From positions 1 through 64,000 of the forward strand of contig JAUXNQ010000037.1 of NCBI GenBank assembly GCA_030682715.1: a DNA stretch of 64,000 bases, read 5' to 3'. Both the position numbers and the translations under genes were made by a program. Source of the DNA: Methylotenera sp. GTDB taxonomy: Bacteria; Pseudomonadota; Gammaproteobacteria; Burkholderiales; Methylophilaceae. Positions 17,475 to 24,051 of this stretch are shown here, piece by piece. The notes under the pieces were generated by a model. That model was not told where the DNA came from. It searched no databases and worked only from the letters and a program-made list of their open reading frames with translations. Each line of letters starts with the position of its first letter. Position 1 is the first letter of the stretch.

Positions 17475-17990
<516 letters not shown>

Positions 17991-18345: not shown

Positions 18346-19035
18346 TTAGTCATTGCTACCCATTAAACCCATCAACAAATGTAACAAGCTTGTAAATAAG
18401 TTATAGATGCTTAAATAAAGTCCTAATGTCGCCATGACGTAGTTAGTTTCACCACCGTTAACGATACGGCTAACATCGTACAAAATAAAGCCAGAGAACA
18501 AGATGACTCCAACTGCTGATAACGCAAGCGCCATCGCTGGAATTTGTAAAAAGATATTAGCTAATGAAGCAACGATTAGTAAAATAATACCAACCAATAA
18601 GAACTTGCCCATGAAGCTAAAGTCTTTTTTGGTAGTCGTTGCGATACCAGCCAATGTCATCAGAATAATGCCAGTACCGCCAGCCGCTAAGCCTACGATT
18701 TGTGCGCCGTTACTAAGATTAAGTGCATGTTGTAGAATTGGGCCAAGTAACATCCCCATTAAGAATGTTAGGCCTAATAAAAGTACCACACCGAAACTGC
18801 TGTTACGGTTAGCAGAAATTGCTGCAAACAGACCGTACATGACAGCCAAGGCACCAATTGCAAAAATAAATGGATGTTGCTGGGCAATCGCAAAATTCAT
18901 GCTCATGCCGATAAAAGCACCAATGACTGTTGGTATCATTGTCAAACCCAACAGCGCGTAAGTATTACGCAAGACTCGGTTCGTCGCTAACTGAGCTGAC
19001 TCTGAACGACCTAATACTGGGGTATTGTCTAACAT
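18346..19035 (-). CDS. Bax inhibitor-1/YccA family membrane protein
   Basis: A 229-residue inner-membrane protein with seven hydrophobic segments. Family marks include VLRNTYALLGLTM near the N-terminus and the C-terminal SGFILYDVSRIVNGGETNYVMA, which holds the conserved Asp. E. coli YccA in this family modulates the FtsH protease; whether that holds here is unknown. AGAGGAAA precedes the ATG. A short tandem repeat lies just upstream in the presumed promoter. Confidence 0.9.
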   Translation of the reverse strand: MLDNTPVLGRSESAQLATNRVLRNTYALLGLTMIPTVIGAFIGMSMNFAIAQQHPFIFAIGALAVMYGLFAAISANRNSSFGVVLLLGLTFLMGMLLGPILQHALNLSNGAQIVGLAAGGTGIILMTLAGIATTTKKDFSFMGKFLLVGIILLIVASLANIFLQIPAMALALSAVGVILFSGFILYDVSRIVNGGETNYVMATLGLYLSIYNLFTSLLHLLMGLMGSND

Positions 19036-19143: not shown

Positions 19144-20190
19144 TTACGCGAACAATTCGCCTTCTACTACACCTACCTCAGCAACCTGATGTACTGCACG
19201 CACAAACTCAGCACTTTCGTGCAATGCATCCATCGTTAATGGGTGCTTATGTCCATGCATACGTGCTAATCGGCTCAGGCTTTGTGCAGATATTGTCCAG
19301 CTAAGATTAGCTAACAACTCATCTGCCATAGCAGGCTGATTGCATAACAACACCATATCACACCCTGCATTAAGTGCATCTAAAGCACGACTGGTCACAT
19401 CACCTCCTGCCGTTGCGGCTTCCATGCTTAAATCGTCGCTAAAAATCACGCCATTAAAGCCTAAGCGCTCACGCAATACTTTTTGCAACCAGCGCGGTGA
19501 AAAGCCAGCAGGTTTATTATCAACTTTGGCGTAAATCACATGGGCAGGCATAATCGCCTGAATGCCATCATCAATCAGCATTCTAAACGGTTGCATATCG
19601 TGCTGTGCAATCTGGTCAAATTCACGCTCATCCACTGGCATACTTACATGCGAATCTGCCACCACAAAACCGTGCCCAGGGAAGTGCTTACCAACAGCCG
19701 CCATGCCACCTTTTTTTAAACCTTGCATCAGCGCATAAGCTAAATCGCTAATTGCTTGTGGATTTAGATGAAAAGCACGGTCGCCAATCACTAAACTATC
19801 GCCATAATCCATATCCAGCACTGGTGTAAAACTAAAATCGACACCATGTGCACGTAGCTCTGCCGCTAAAATCCAACCGGCTTCTGTGGCAAGCTCTTTT
19901 GCTTTTTTAGGATTTTTGTCCCAAATCTTACCGAATTCGCGCATGGGTGGGATTTTAGTAAATCCATCTCTAAAACGCTGTACACGTCCGCCTTCATGAT
20001 CAACTGCAATCAATAGTGGTGGCTGACGTACCGCATGAATACTTGCAGTAAGCGCTTTAAGCTGCGCATTATTTTCATAATTACGCTTAAACAGAATCAC
20101 ACCACCTACAAGTGGGTGCTTTAAACGTCTTATGTCATCATCGGTTAATTCTGTGCCGACAACATCTAACATGACTGGACCTAAACTCAT
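19144..20190 (-). CDS. nagZ: beta-N-acetylhexosaminidase NagZ
   Basis: A cytosolic glycosidase that removes GlcNAc from anhydro-muropeptides during cell-wall recycling. The 348-residue length is typical. The GH3 signature is GKHFPGHGFVVADSHVSMP, with the catalytic loop Asp/His. LLIAVDHEGGRVQRFRDGFT and VIFSDDLSMEAA (the nucleophile region) are present. It starts 13 bp after the permease gene ends. That places it in a run with a peptide ABC transporter and a YkuD enzyme, which fits muropeptide recycling. Confidence 0.94.
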   Translation of the reverse strand: MSLGPVMLDVVGTELTDDDIRRLKHPLVGGVILFKRNYENNAQLKALTASIHAVRQPPLLIAVDHEGGRVQRFRDGFTKIPPMREFGKIWDKNPKKAKELATEAGWILAAELRAHGVDFSFTPVLDMDYGDSLVIGDRAFHLNPQAISDLAYALMQGLKKGGMAAVGKHFPGHGFVVADSHVSMPVDEREFDQIAQHDMQPFRMLIDDGIQAIMPAHVIYAKVDNKPAGFSPRWLQKVLRERLGFNGVIFSDDLSMEAATAGGDVTSRALDALNAGCDMVLLCNQPAMADELLANLSWTISAQSLSRLARMHGHKHPLTMDALHESAEFVRAVHQVAEVGVVEGELFA

Positions 20191-20203
20191 GCAATCTCTT
20201 TTC

Positions 20204-20995
20204 TTAATCTGGTTTTCTAACGTCTAAAGCGTCGCGCAAATAGTCACCGCCTAGATTAATGGCTAAAATCAAACTCATCAAGCATCCGCCTACAATTAAT
20301 ACATAATGCGGCGCAATTAACATATAGCGCACGGCATCGCGCAACATTGCACCCCACGAGGCATCGGGCGCTTGTATCCCTAAACCAAGAAATGACAGAC
20401 TAGCCTCTGCGATCATGACGCTCGCTAAACTATAGGTGGCTTCTACCACTAAAATAGAAGCTAATAAAGGCAATATATGGCGAAACAGTAATCGCGGCAC
20501 CCCTGCGCCTAATGACTCTGCGGCTTGTACGTGCTGGCGATGACGCAAACTTAATGTCTGCCCACGCGTTAATCGCGCGTAACTGACCCAACCTGTTAGA
20601 CATAAAGCCACGATTAAATTGCCAAGCCCAGGCCCCAGCACGGCAGCAAAAGCGATGGCTAATAAAATGCCAGGGAACGCTAAAAAAATATCGGTAATTT
20701 GCATCAGCACAGCATCTACCCTGCCCCCATAAAACCCAGCTAGTAGCCCGACAAACACGCCGATTGTCATTGTCACGCCAGTGACAATAAGCGCAACCAA
20801 GAAGGACACTTCAACCCCACTTAACACGCGCGCCAAAATATCACGGCCTAAGTCATCAGCACCAAACCAATGCTGGGCAGTAGGCGCTTGTAAAATCACC
20901 TCTAAATCAATTGCATTTGGATTAAGCTGAAGCACATTACCAAGCAGCACAGCGATTAGCCAAAACGCTAAAATTAAATAGGAAGTATATTTCAT
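20204..20995 (-). CDS. oligopeptide ABC transporter permease (DppC/OppC type)
   Basis: An inner-membrane permease of 263 residues with about six helices. It shows the family's N-terminal FGADDLGRDILARVLSG and the ATPase-coupling loop QAAESLGAGVPRLLFRHILP, then EASLSFLGLGIQAPDASWG. It pairs with the DppB-type permease upstream. No ATP-binding subunit is encoded in the window, so ATPases must come from elsewhere. It lies directly before nagZ. Confidence 0.92.
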   Translation of the reverse strand: MKYTSYLILAFWLIAVLLGNVLQLNPNAIDLEVILQAPTAQHWFGADDLGRDILARVLSGVEVSFLVALIVTGVTMTIGVFVGLLAGFYGGRVDAVLMQITDIFLAFPGILLAIAFAAVLGPGLGNLIVALCLTGWVSYARLTRGQTLSLRHRQHVQAAESLGAGVPRLLFRHILPLLASILVVEATYSLASVMIAEASLSFLGLGIQAPDASWGAMLRDAVRYMLIAPHYVLIVGGCLMSLILAINLGGDYLRDALDVRKPD

Positions 20996-21091
20996 TGAAT
21001 AGTCTTACGGTTAACGTCTGCTAAGTTTGGCATAACCTTAAACATTACGCATTCACTAGGCATGGTGAACTCATTAAATATGGCACACTCA

Positions 21092-22012
21092 CTAAGCATA
21101 GCGCATTCTAGGATCAGCTATTCTATATAAAAAATCCGTAGCCAGATTCACTAGCACATAGCTTAAAGCAATAATGAGCACACATGCTTGCGTGACAGGA
21201 TAATCCCGTTTTTCTATACTCTCTACCAATAATCGCCCTACACCATCCCAACTAAAAATGGTTTCGGTAATCACGGTACCAGCCAGTAAGCTACCCATCT
21301 GCAAACCAACAATGGTAATAATCGGCAATAACGCTGCACGCAAGGCATGGCGCAATATCACCGTTTGCTCACTTAAGCCTTTGGCGCGTGCGGTACGAAT
21401 ATAATCATCGTTTAACACTTCCAGTAAACTGGTGCGTGTCATCCGCGTCAAAATTGCGCTTAAGCCAAAGCCTAAAGTAACGGCGGGTAAAATAATGGAT
21501 GTACCTGAATCCATCCCACTCACAGGCAGCCAGCCCAACCAGACTGCAAATATCAGCATCAGCACTGGCCCGAGCCAGAATGCAGGCATGGCTGATAAAC
21601 GTACAGAAACGATGGTCACCACAAAGTCTTGCCAGTGCCCAGCTTTAAGCGCTGCAAAAATACCAAGAGGCACGCCAATCGCAATCCCAATCAATAAGGA
21701 TAACAAAGCCAGTTTCACGGTGGCAGGGTAACGCACTTTAATCAAATCAATAATCGGAGTTTGCGTATGAATAGACTGACCAAGATCACCATACATCAAC
21801 TTTGCCAAGTAGCTTCCAAACTGATTAACCAGCGGCTGGTCCAACCCTAAATCCGCACGTAGTGCTTCTCTATCTGCCATGTTTGCCGACTCACCCAGCA
21901 TAACATCAACAGGGTCGCCTGGTACCAAATGTATCAGTAAAAAGGTGAGTAGCAATACACCGAAAATGACTGTAAACAAGCTCGTTAAACGTTTGATGAT
22001 ATTCATCGACAT
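21092..22012 (-). CDS. oligopeptide ABC transporter permease (DppB/OppB type)
   Basis: An inner-membrane permease of 306 residues. The N-terminal region LLTFLLIHLVPGDPVDVMLG is typical, as is GLDQPLVNQFGSYLAKLMYGDLG. The coupling loop is YIRTARAKGLSEQTVILRHALR. The C-terminal DFLYRIADPRMRYA is the common DppB ending. An in-frame ATG two codons later (22006) is an equally possible start. The 96-bp gap to the DppC gene holds only degenerate short repeats. Confidence 0.92.
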   Translation of the reverse strand: MSMNIIKRLTSLFTVIFGVLLLTFLLIHLVPGDPVDVMLGESANMADREALRADLGLDQPLVNQFGSYLAKLMYGDLGQSIHTQTPIIDLIKVRYPATVKLALLSLLIGIAIGVPLGIFAALKAGHWQDFVVTIVSVRLSAMPAFWLGPVLMLIFAVWLGWLPVSGMDSGTSIILPAVTLGFGLSAILTRMTRTSLLEVLNDDYIRTARAKGLSEQTVILRHALRAALLPIITIVGLQMGSLLAGTVITETIFSWDGVGRLLVESIEKRDYPVTQACVLIIALSYVLVNLATDFLYRIADPRMRYA

Positions 22013-22112
22013 TTCTCACCATATCGATAGTGATTGTCGATTAATGACTTACGAACTAAACAATGATATTTCAGTACTTGATATGCCGTTGTAATCCTTA
22101 AAAAAATAAGCA

Positions 22113-22592
22113 TTAATCAGCAATCATCACAGAAGTGCCTACGGGCACCATATTAAACAACTCAACGATATCAGCATTGCGCATACGAATGCATCCGTGT
22201 GACTCAGGCTGACCAAGGGCAACACTATCAGGGGTGCCATGAATATAAATATAGCGTTGCATTGTATCCACATTACCTAAGCGATTTTTACCCAGAACGT
22301 TGCCAGATAGCCACAAAATACGTGTCAGTATCCAATCACGGTTAGGAAATTCAGCCATCAGTGCTGGTGTACAAATTTCACCTGTTGGCCTACGCCCGAC
22401 AAATACTGTATTGAGAGGCTGCTTATCGCCGATTTTAGCGCGAATGGTATGTGCACCCAATGGCGTACAGCCGCTATTTTTCTCGCAACCTGTGCCATTA
22501 GCCGCGCTAGATATCGCATATTGCGCTTTAACATTGCCCATATTGTCGAGCAAGGTAAGTGTTTGCTGCTGTATAGAAATATTAATGTGCAT
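22113..22592 (-). CDS. YkuD-family L,D-transpeptidase fold enzyme without signal peptide
   Basis: A 159-residue protein that is almost only the YkuD domain. The catalytic signature is IHGTPDSVALGQPESHGCIRM, which supplies His, Ser-His-Gly and the nucleophilic Cys. There is no hydrophobic leader: it opens MHINISIQQQTLTLLDNMG. The enzyme therefore probably works in the cytosol, unlike wall-crosslinking LD-transpeptidases. Cytosolic YkuD proteins such as A. baumannii ElsL act as L,D-carboxypeptidases on recycled muropeptides, and the nagZ context supports that reading. It overlaps the binding-protein gene by 11 bp. Confidence 0.82.
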   Translation of the reverse strand: MHINISIQQQTLTLLDNMGNVKAQYAISSAANGTGCEKNSGCTPLGAHTIRAKIGDKQPLNTVFVGRRPTGEICTPALMAEFPNRDWILTRILWLSGNVLGKNRLGNVDTMQRYIYIHGTPDSVALGQPESHGCIRMRNADIVELFNMVPVGTSVMIAD

Positions 22593-24051
22593 ATTTACGT
22601 ATTGTAGCTAAATCGTCCCAGTTGCCATCTGGTTTTGGTGAGTAGTTGGTGATTTTTTTATTTGATACAGCAAACTGCCCCTCGTACCACAGCGGAATAT
22701 AAGGTAATTGTTCATGAATCCTGTCGGTAGCTGCCTGCCAGTCTTCTTTCTCAAGTAGGCTATCTAATGTTGCATCTGAAAACCGACCACGATTAAACCC
22801 GTTAGGTGGGAAGTGATTGCTAGCAAAAACATTAGTATAAATTTCGGGGGTTTTGATACCCACCCAAGTGAGGCCAAACAACTGGAAATTCCCCTGTTTA
22901 ACATCTTCAAAAAAAGTACCCCAGTCTAAACTACGAATTTCCAACTCAATGCCCGCGGGGCGCATTTGCGCTTGCAGTATCGTTGCAATACGCACGCGCT
23001 GTGCATCTGTCGAAGTTTTATAAATAAGCTTAACTGGCAAACTAAGCCCCGCTTCAGTCAGTAAGCGTTTAGCAAGCTGGGGGTTGTAATCATAAGCTTT
23101 TAAACTGTGATTGCCTGCGTAATGCTCTGGTGGCAAAATCGCACCTGCAATACGCGTGTGATTAACCATTACTTTATCAATCAAAGCTTGTCGATCAATC
23201 GCATGTGCAATGGCTTGCCTTACTTTAAGACTGCTCAGCATAGGGTCTTGCATATTCAAGCCCAAATATGAGTAGTTAGCCCCTGGGCTAGTCTTTACAG
23301 TTACCTCAGGCTTGGTTTGCAGGTACTTTACCAGCTCAGCAGGTAGCTCGCCTTGCAATAAATCAGTTTCACCACGTAGTAATTTCAACACGCGCACAGT
23401 CGGGTCTTTAACCTCACTGAGTGTAATAATTTGCCCGTCGGCAACTCTACGTAACACTAACTTGTTATTTTTTTTAACAAACGCCAGTGGGCCATTTCCT
23501 ATTGGATAGCGCGCAAAGTCATGTTGCTGTTCAAGTAACTGCTTCGGCATAATCCCGATAATCAATTTCGCTGCAAAATAGGGGTCTGGCTGTTTAAGAT
23601 AAAAAGTGAGATGTTCAGCATCATGCACGGTGATTTTTTGAATATTGGCATACTCAGCGCTGAGTGGTGAATTAGCCAATTGGAGAATCGCATCATAAGT
23701 CGCCTTTACGTCCTCGGCATTAAGCGGCTGTTGATTATGAAATAATGGGCGCGGTGACTTTAAAGAAACAAGATACTCAGTTGCACTGACCATCTGCCAA
23801 TCGGCTAACTTTGGAGTTGGCTTAAAGTTTTGATCAAAATCGACTAAGGGCTGATAAATTAAACGAATCACTCGTTCAGATGCCGCATCTGTCGCCACTC
23901 TAGGGTCTAAACTCAAAGGCGCTTGAGATAGCGCAAAGTGAATAGGTGTGGATTGATGCACACTGGCATCTCTGTTTGTATCTTTACTTGCAAAATCACA
24001 GGCACTGAGCTGTAAAAAATAGATTATTAATAAAAATCTCAAATATTTCAT
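22582..24051 (-). CDS. oligopeptide-binding lipoprotein of an ABC transporter (SBP family 5)
   Basis: A periplasmic solute receptor of 489 residues from ATG 24051. That start gives MKYLRFLLIIYFLQLSAC, a proper lipoprotein signal with lipobox LSAC; the longer frame to 24090 does not. SBP_bac_5 features include ALSQAPLSLDPRVATDAASE and VRQAIAHAIDRQALIDKVM. It is the first gene of a set with a YkuD enzyme, two permeases and NagZ. Ligands in this family are di- or oligopeptides, and some bind murein peptides. Muropeptide binding is inferred from context only. Confidence 0.88.
   Translation of the reverse strand: MKYLRFLLIIYFLQLSACDFASKDTNRDASVHQSTPIHFALSQAPLSLDPRVATDAASERVIRLIYQPLVDFDQNFKPTPKLADWQMVSATEYLVSLKSPRPLFHNQQPLNAEDVKATYDAILQLANSPLSAEYANIQKITVHDAEHLTFYLKQPDPYFAAKLIIGIMPKQLLEQQHDFARYPIGNGPLAFVKKNNKLVLRRVADGQIITLSEVKDPTVRVLKLLRGETDLLQGELPAELVKYLQTKPEVTVKTSPGANYSYLGLNMQDPMLSSLKVRQAIAHAIDRQALIDKVMVNHTRIAGAILPPEHYAGNHSLKAYDYNPQLAKRLLTEAGLSLPVKLIYKTSTDAQRVRIATILQAQMRPAGIELEIRSLDWGTFFEDVKQGNFQLFGLTWVGIKTPEIYTNVFASNHFPPNGFNRGRFSDATLDSLLEKEDWQAATDRIHEQLPYIPLWYEGQFAVSNKKITNYSPKPDGNWDDLATIRKYAH

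Follow-up and report, generated by a model that had tools for sequence, protein, structure and literature searches.

A fixed ykuD-dppB-dppC core in Methylophilaceae hints at a second route for cell-wall-fragment uptake beside AmpG

Gene content of the locus

The window analysed here is a stretch of 64,000 nucleotides (contig JAUXNQ010000037.1, positions 1 to 64,000) from a Methylotenera sp. draft genome (GCA_030682715.1; 2,450,319 bases, 67 contigs, 95.1% complete), whose closest named relatives, as judged by the YkuD protein, are Methylotenera sp. and M. mobilis 13 (89% identical) of the family Methylophilaceae. Five genes on its minus strand, in the order SBP, YkuD, DppB, DppC and NagZ, encode a solute-binding protein (SBP), a YkuD-type enzyme, two ABC permeases and a beta-N-acetylhexosaminidase. 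The ykuD-dppB-dppC part of this block is fixed among related loci, and the locus as a whole hints at a second route for wall-fragment uptake.

The SBP gene (22582..24051) encodes a family-5 lipoprotein of 489 amino acids with the lipobox LSAC and a SBP_bac_5 match of 192.5 bits. The adjoining gene (22113..22592) encodes a YkuD/ElsL-type protein of 159 amino acids (PF03734, 78.3 bits) with the HGTP...SHGCIRM motifs, a predicted and probably cytosolic L,D-carboxypeptidase. The DppB-like permease (21092..22012) matches PF00528/PF19300 and scores 360.7 bits with the nickel-permease model Opp2B, above its cut-off of 350, and the DppC-like permease (20204..20995; PF00528, 89.3 bits) has Opp2C as its best NCBIfam model, at 257.1 bits and below the cut-off of 300. 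NagZ (19144..20190) scores 508 bits against PRK05337 (cut-off 207); it has no signal peptide by eye, and 11 open codons precede its start. As the first-pass annotation had it, the five genes share one direction and are closely joined at SBP/YkuD (11-bp overlap) and DppC/NagZ (13-bp gap). The junctions at YkuD/DppB (100 bp) and DppB/DppC (96 bp), which it did not mention, are looser. A promoter scan gave chance-level results (13 found, 14.2 in shuffles); 10 terminator-like sites were found against 6.5 in shuffles, none of them on the minus strand between the five genes.

Downstream of nagZ, on the same strand and 108 bp away, is a gene for a YccA/BI-1 membrane protein (18346..19035; PF01027, 173.2 bits), and beyond it on that side of the block is the convergent, plus-strand tadA (17487..17984; PRK10860, 206.7 bits, cut-off 150). 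The cytochrome cbb3 gene ccoN lies upstream of the SBP gene and is divergent from it.

Conservation and distribution of the block

Gene order was compared in the best 80 of 308 YkuD relatives, whose loci are mutually related and not independent, with two genes scored as adjacent in testable loci if they keep their relative orientation and are separated by a gap of up to 600 bp, or 150 bp in a stricter version. YkuD and DppB are adjacent in 78/78 testable loci and DppB and DppC in 73/73, and the control operon ccoN-ccoO-ccoP-ccoG scores 18/18, 18/18 and 15/15 for its successive pairs. The remaining pairs are looser: SBP-YkuD (47/77), DppC-NagZ (just 42/67), YccA-NagZ (50/62), TadA-YccA (42/49) and SBP-CcoN (17/61), with still other neighbour pairs keeping their adjacency in 3/6, 8/13, 11/14, 5/17 and 11/34. 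At 150 bp the counts are 70/75 for YkuD-DppB, 64/67 for DppB-DppC, 44/75 for SBP-YkuD, 38/67 for DppC-NagZ and 39/57 for NagZ-YccA, and taking the longest reading frames gives a 4-bp ykuD/dppB overlap in five loci (L021, L078, L083, L084 and L087). The ykuD-dppB-dppC segment is thus a fixed core, with SBP and NagZ as looser neighbours. The first-pass annotation had proposed a single five-gene operon; of its genes only the central three are fixed, and a fixed operon that includes SBP and NagZ was rejected on the SBP-YkuD and DppC-NagZ counts.

No SBP match was found at 11 of the loci. The genomes of nine of these were searched: eight have a member of the SBP subfamily (57-68% identical) elsewhere, unlinked to the locus, and the ninth yielded only a fragment of SBP2, the second binding protein described below. 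Genes are inserted between SBP and ykuD in loci L016, L019, L022, L026 and L057, those scanned in L016 being a ParE/RelE-family toxin gene and a gene for a large DUF559 protein, which suggests that this interval is a hot spot for mobile genes. Locus L023 has a reversed VIT1-family gene (scanned) in the same place, and L024, L046, L047, L059, L066, L071, L072 and L080 look similar to it. Between dppC and nagZ, several relatives appear to carry a gene resembling queuosine transporters (scanned only in L155, which has no dppC at the locus) or a methyltransferase gene (scanned in L045 only).

The enzyme is distributed far more widely than the block. YkuD was matched at E<=1e-20 in 168 of 300 genomes of the order, and 40 ykuD loci were read, 37 outside Methylophilaceae (from 30 families) and three inside. 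Outside the family ykuD lies directly behind tadA in 31/37 loci, about 2 kb behind it in three and without tadA in three, and SBP, DppB, DppC and NagZ occur in 0/37 of the stretches fetched (at most 19.5 kb); six of the 37 gave weak DppF matches that we take to be generic ABC ATPases. The SBP subfamily (E<=1e-70) was found in 10 of 14 same-family genomes and 0 of 385 others among the matches listed, with at most four candidates scored per genome, so that a divergent SBP in another family may have escaped detection. The usual pairing of tadA with ykuD across the order (L123-L162) joins a tRNA deaminase to a likely wall-recycling enzyme. One of the loci read, L153, has tandem YkuD genes (their products share 58% and 44% identity with the window YkuD), and four genomes of its family (f50) have two YkuD matches each.

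Three genomes of a streamlined genus show the locus order rlmD-ykuD-...-nagZ-yccA; in the one that was fully read, a queuosine precursor transporter gene separates ykuD from nagZ. SBP, dppB and dppC are absent from the locus in all three (dppBC elsewhere in these genomes were not searched for), and the window SBP is absent from four genomes of the genus among the matches listed. Each of the three has a single SBP_bac_5 gene and keeps AmpG and Mpl along with one or more oligo_HPY ATPases.

The enzyme, the binding protein and the ATPases

The ATG of ykuD is preceded by only five open codons, so that a signal peptide is impossible, and the N-terminus has no hydrophobic stretch by eye; the first-pass description of a leaderless protein with both YkuD motifs is therefore correct. 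Nine residues are invariant in 25/25 aligned homologues (H118, G119, P121, S131, H132, G133, C134, R136 and M137). Of the NCBIfam models, ElsL (NF040925) is the best, with 181.8 bits over nearly the full length, and the next reaches 35.5 bits. ElsL is a cytosolic L,D-carboxypeptidase, as reported from experiments in Acinetobacter, and orthologues in Betaproteobacteria were noted in the same source (101/788 hits; PMC8649774). LdcA (Peptidase_S66) was found in 0/25 genomes, including the source genome, in a search that matched the E. coli positive control, that lay outside the streamlined genus, and in which LdcV-type enzymes, other YkuD proteins and other carboxypeptidases were not searched; completeness is stated for one of the 25 (the source genome, 95%). 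Because the protein is leaderless, carries an invariant motif and has ElsL as its best model, and because LdcA was not found, YkuD is likely an ElsL-type cytosolic L,D-carboxypeptidase of recycling, and this part of the first-pass annotation holds as a prediction. The predicted YkuD structure has a mean pLDDT of 78.9, and we draw no conclusion from it.

The established recycling genes are also present. The source genome has AmpG (488 bits, cut-off 350), as have 29 of 30 genomes above cut-off, the thirtieth having a fragment at a contig end. Mpl is above cut-off in 30/30 genomes and an Amidase_2 gene is present in 30/30, the source genome's copy being AmpD (276 bits, cut-off 143). The first-pass annotation had held that a normal AmpG/LdcA pathway, together with a binding protein preferring unrelated dipeptides, would refute its proposal; of that pathway AmpG is in place and LdcA was not found.

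For the binding protein, lipobox starts were chosen with a simple pattern that matches 47 of 70 homologous SBP reading frames, and the alignments comprise the window SBP and pattern-fitting sequences only, with 23 other frames left out, so that the invariant lipobox cysteine is partly a product of selection. In E. coli DppA, R383 is reported to hold the carboxyl end of the dipeptide and D436 its amino end (PMC12136057), and in MppA D439 to hold the free amine of L-Ala (PMC6022919). When 12 SBPs of the family are aligned with E. coli DppA, MppA, OppA, NikA and GsiB, at 20-26% identity, which is a caveat on this column, they read WVG-IKTPEIY or similar, a stretch that is one residue shorter and has no Asp at the DppA D436/MppA D439 position. 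The Asp-less motif is found in all 48 SBP sequences of the family that were viewed, and the eight unlinked SBP copies carry it in slightly altered form; in the alignment OppA also has the amine-holding Asp, and NikA, GsiB and SBP2 also do not. The DppA R383 column is uninformative, with Leu there also in MppA, OppA and NikA. The SBP thus resembles neither ordinary peptide binders nor binders of murein tripeptide, and an amine-blocked ligand such as an anhydromuropeptide would fit it, as would non-peptides. Against NCBIfam models the SBP scores 113.3 bits for NikA (cut-off 393), 94.9 for Opp5A_nikA (600) and 107.4 for GsiB (594). A Foldseek search of the PDB, whose best matches include 3m8u (a glutathione binder), 1uqw (E. 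coli YliB/GsiB) and nickel binders, did not discriminate between ligands. The predicted SBP model (mean pLDDT 81.3) falls below 50 at residues 397-424, a segment that contains TPEIY from the expected ligand site, and is therefore unreliable there. A nickel importer was considered because DppB exceeds the Opp2B cut-off; the score of the SBP, however, falls far short of the one set for NikA.

No DppD or DppF relatives turned up in any of the 80 related loci, which extend as far as 7 kb to either side. The source genome has two oligo_HPY ATPase genes side by side on another contig, forming one DppD-DppF pair (L011:5945-7638, G000:C44), and no further oligo_HPY ATPases were found in it, NikDE-type ATPases not having been searched separately; across 30 genomes the number of oligo_HPY matches per genome ranges from 1 to 4. 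The ATPases are thus not truly missing, and borrowing them, as the first-pass annotation had supposed, is what the unlinked pair points to. No permease gene lies within the 14 kb read around the pair, which is flanked by a SIMPL-domain-like gene and yfgM-bamB-der (labels by eye).

The second of the two SBP_bac_5 genes in the source genome belongs to another importer set, composed of an mltD-like gene, SBP2, dppB2, dppC2 and fabI (L194:4634-10911, G000:C25), also with no ATPase gene within the 13 kb read. The order of this set is the same in 4/4 genomes read, one of them streamlined, and its MltD-like lytic transglycosylase (LysM, SLT) scores 303 bits against the MltD model, below the cut-off of 508. 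We regard SBP2-dppB2-dppC2 as a candidate further importer of wall fragments. The ATPase-contact (EAA) stretches look alike in both DppB and both DppC proteins, and that of the window DppB resembles DppB2 and E. coli DppB. The simplest reading is that one ATPase pair serves both permease sets. Methylophilus rhizosphaerae, the genome of L046, has another importer set at L198 (G313:C10), which includes DppD/DppF-like ATPases of its own (45-47% identical).

Interpretation and comparison with known systems

Accounts of wall-fragment uptake in Gram-negative bacteria usually feature AmpG as the importer; Opp-MppA handles short free peptides, and YejBEF-YepA takes over in bacteria that have no AmpG. 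Our preferred reading, to which we assign a probability of about one half, is that the locus encodes an accessory importer of peptidoglycan fragments together with the enzyme that trims them. In this scheme the SBP, as a lipoprotein, would capture a product of cell-wall turnover in the periplasm, DppB-DppC would carry it inward, and the unlinked DppD-DppF pair, shared with the second SBP-DppBC set, would supply the energy. In the cytosol YkuD, the only candidate found for a recycling L,D-carboxypeptidase, would remove the terminal D-Ala from tetrapeptide stems to give a tripeptide reusable by Mpl, and NagZ would remove GlcNAc from sugar-bearing fragments. The importer would work beside AmpG-AmpD-Mpl and not in their place. 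We infer the activity of YkuD, the sharing of DppDF and, above all, the transported substrate. A more specific version, which we consider unlikely as a whole, has a dedicated ABC importer of amine-blocked muropeptides (anhydroMurNAc-peptides or disaccharide-peptides) with one origin in Methylophilaceae and running parallel to AmpG, its ATPase pair shared with the lytic-transglycosylase-linked set and both sets feeding one recycling pathway.

Several points weigh against the accessory importer. Its substrate is suggested only by the neighbouring gene, the SBP has no Asp at the amine-holding position, and binders of glutathione, nickel, dipeptides, sialic acid and opines come up side by side in the sequence and fold searches. 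YkuD stays below the strict ElsL cut-off (181.8 vs 270 bits), the carboxypeptidase search was confined to LdcA, and NagZ is often parted from DppC. YkuD and NagZ do not need the importer, since the three streamlined genomes keep both without importer genes at the locus. Finally, because the outside loci have no importer genes in the stretches fetched and the SBP subfamily, among the matches listed, was found only within the family, the link between importer and ykuD probably arose once, in Methylophilaceae.

A less likely but credible alternative is an incidental operon: dppBC and the SBP would import a substrate unrelated to the wall, such as a glutathione-like peptide, a metal chelate or a nutrient peptide, and ykuD would have become co-transcribed with them after a rearrangement near tadA. 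The usual position of ykuD behind tadA outside the family, where the importer genes and NagZ do not occur, makes the join a single event, and the Opp2B score of DppB and the glutathione and nickel binders among the Foldseek matches point the same way. However, the core adjacencies are unbroken although the flanking neighbours on both sides have been reshuffled, the SBP is far below the NikA and GsiB cut-offs, and the reported Bacillus dpp-ykf cluster (below) is a precedent for Dpp-type genes that adjoin a recycling carboxypeptidase. A more restricted version of the accessory importer, in which free tri- or tetrapeptide stems with a free L-Ala amine are taken up in the manner of MppA, trimmed by YkuD and ligated by Mpl, suits the YkuD/Mpl chemistry and the failure to find LdcA, and E. 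coli MppA is reported to bind murein tripeptide and to use Opp (PMC6022919, PMC12136057). The missing Asp argues that the SBP is not a tripeptide binder of the MppA type, subject to the low identity of the alignment, and we consider this form quite improbable. That the locus replaces AmpG, as the first-pass annotation had suggested, might have seemed attractive with NagZ and a leaderless YkuD adjoining the importer; it is refuted by the presence of AmpG, with AmpD and Mpl, and we give it next to no weight.

If the accessory importer is real, a family that keeps AmpG ties a likely recycling carboxypeptidase to an ABC importer, giving parallel import routes with shared ATPases in harmless methylotrophs, and the missing amine-holding residue makes a specific and cheap ligand test feasible. 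A literature search of open-licence PMC papers found no report of this operon. What appears new, in that we did not find it described, is the YkuD-Dpp combination with a fixed core that occurs alongside AmpG, and with ATPases that are unlinked and probably shared; precedents for each half are reported, in dpp-ykf, YejBEF-YepA and the cytosolic YkuD carboxypeptidases.

The window YkuD resembles the ElsL class in being a leaderless YkuD domain of about 160 amino acids in bacteria that have AmpG and in which LdcA was not found (PMC8649774); it differs in scoring below the ElsL cut-off and in sitting in a block with Dpp-type permeases. Like the reported MppA-OppBCDF system of E. coli (PMC6022919, PMC12136057), the locus would pair a family-5 binding protein with a borrowed translocator, with the difference that Asp439 of MppA, which holds the L-Ala free amine, is missing from the window SBP. 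In Bacillus subtilis, ykfA-D lie beside dppB-E, so that Dpp ABC genes adjoin a cytosolic L,D-carboxypeptidase, as is predicted here, and the enzyme is thought there to trim imported murein peptides (PMC2954226, PMC3305447). The Bacillus carboxypeptidase YkfA, however, is LdcA-like (S66) and not of YkuD type, and the reported cluster includes an epimerase, an endopeptidase and the ATPase-like YkfD, none of which is present at the window locus, where there is no ATPase; moreover the window host, unlike Bacillus, is Gram-negative and has AmpG. YejBEF-YepA of Agrobacterium, reported as an ABC muropeptide importer (PMC9790009), similarly has its own binding protein for an ABC peptide importer that serves wall recycling. 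The gene for that binding protein is not located with those of the permeases, a feature we liken to the window system. The window permeases score best as Opp2 type (DppB reaches just 120.7 bits against the YejB model), and whereas YejBEF-YepA replaces a missing AmpG (PMC9790009), the window genome has AmpG, beside which its importer would act as a second route.

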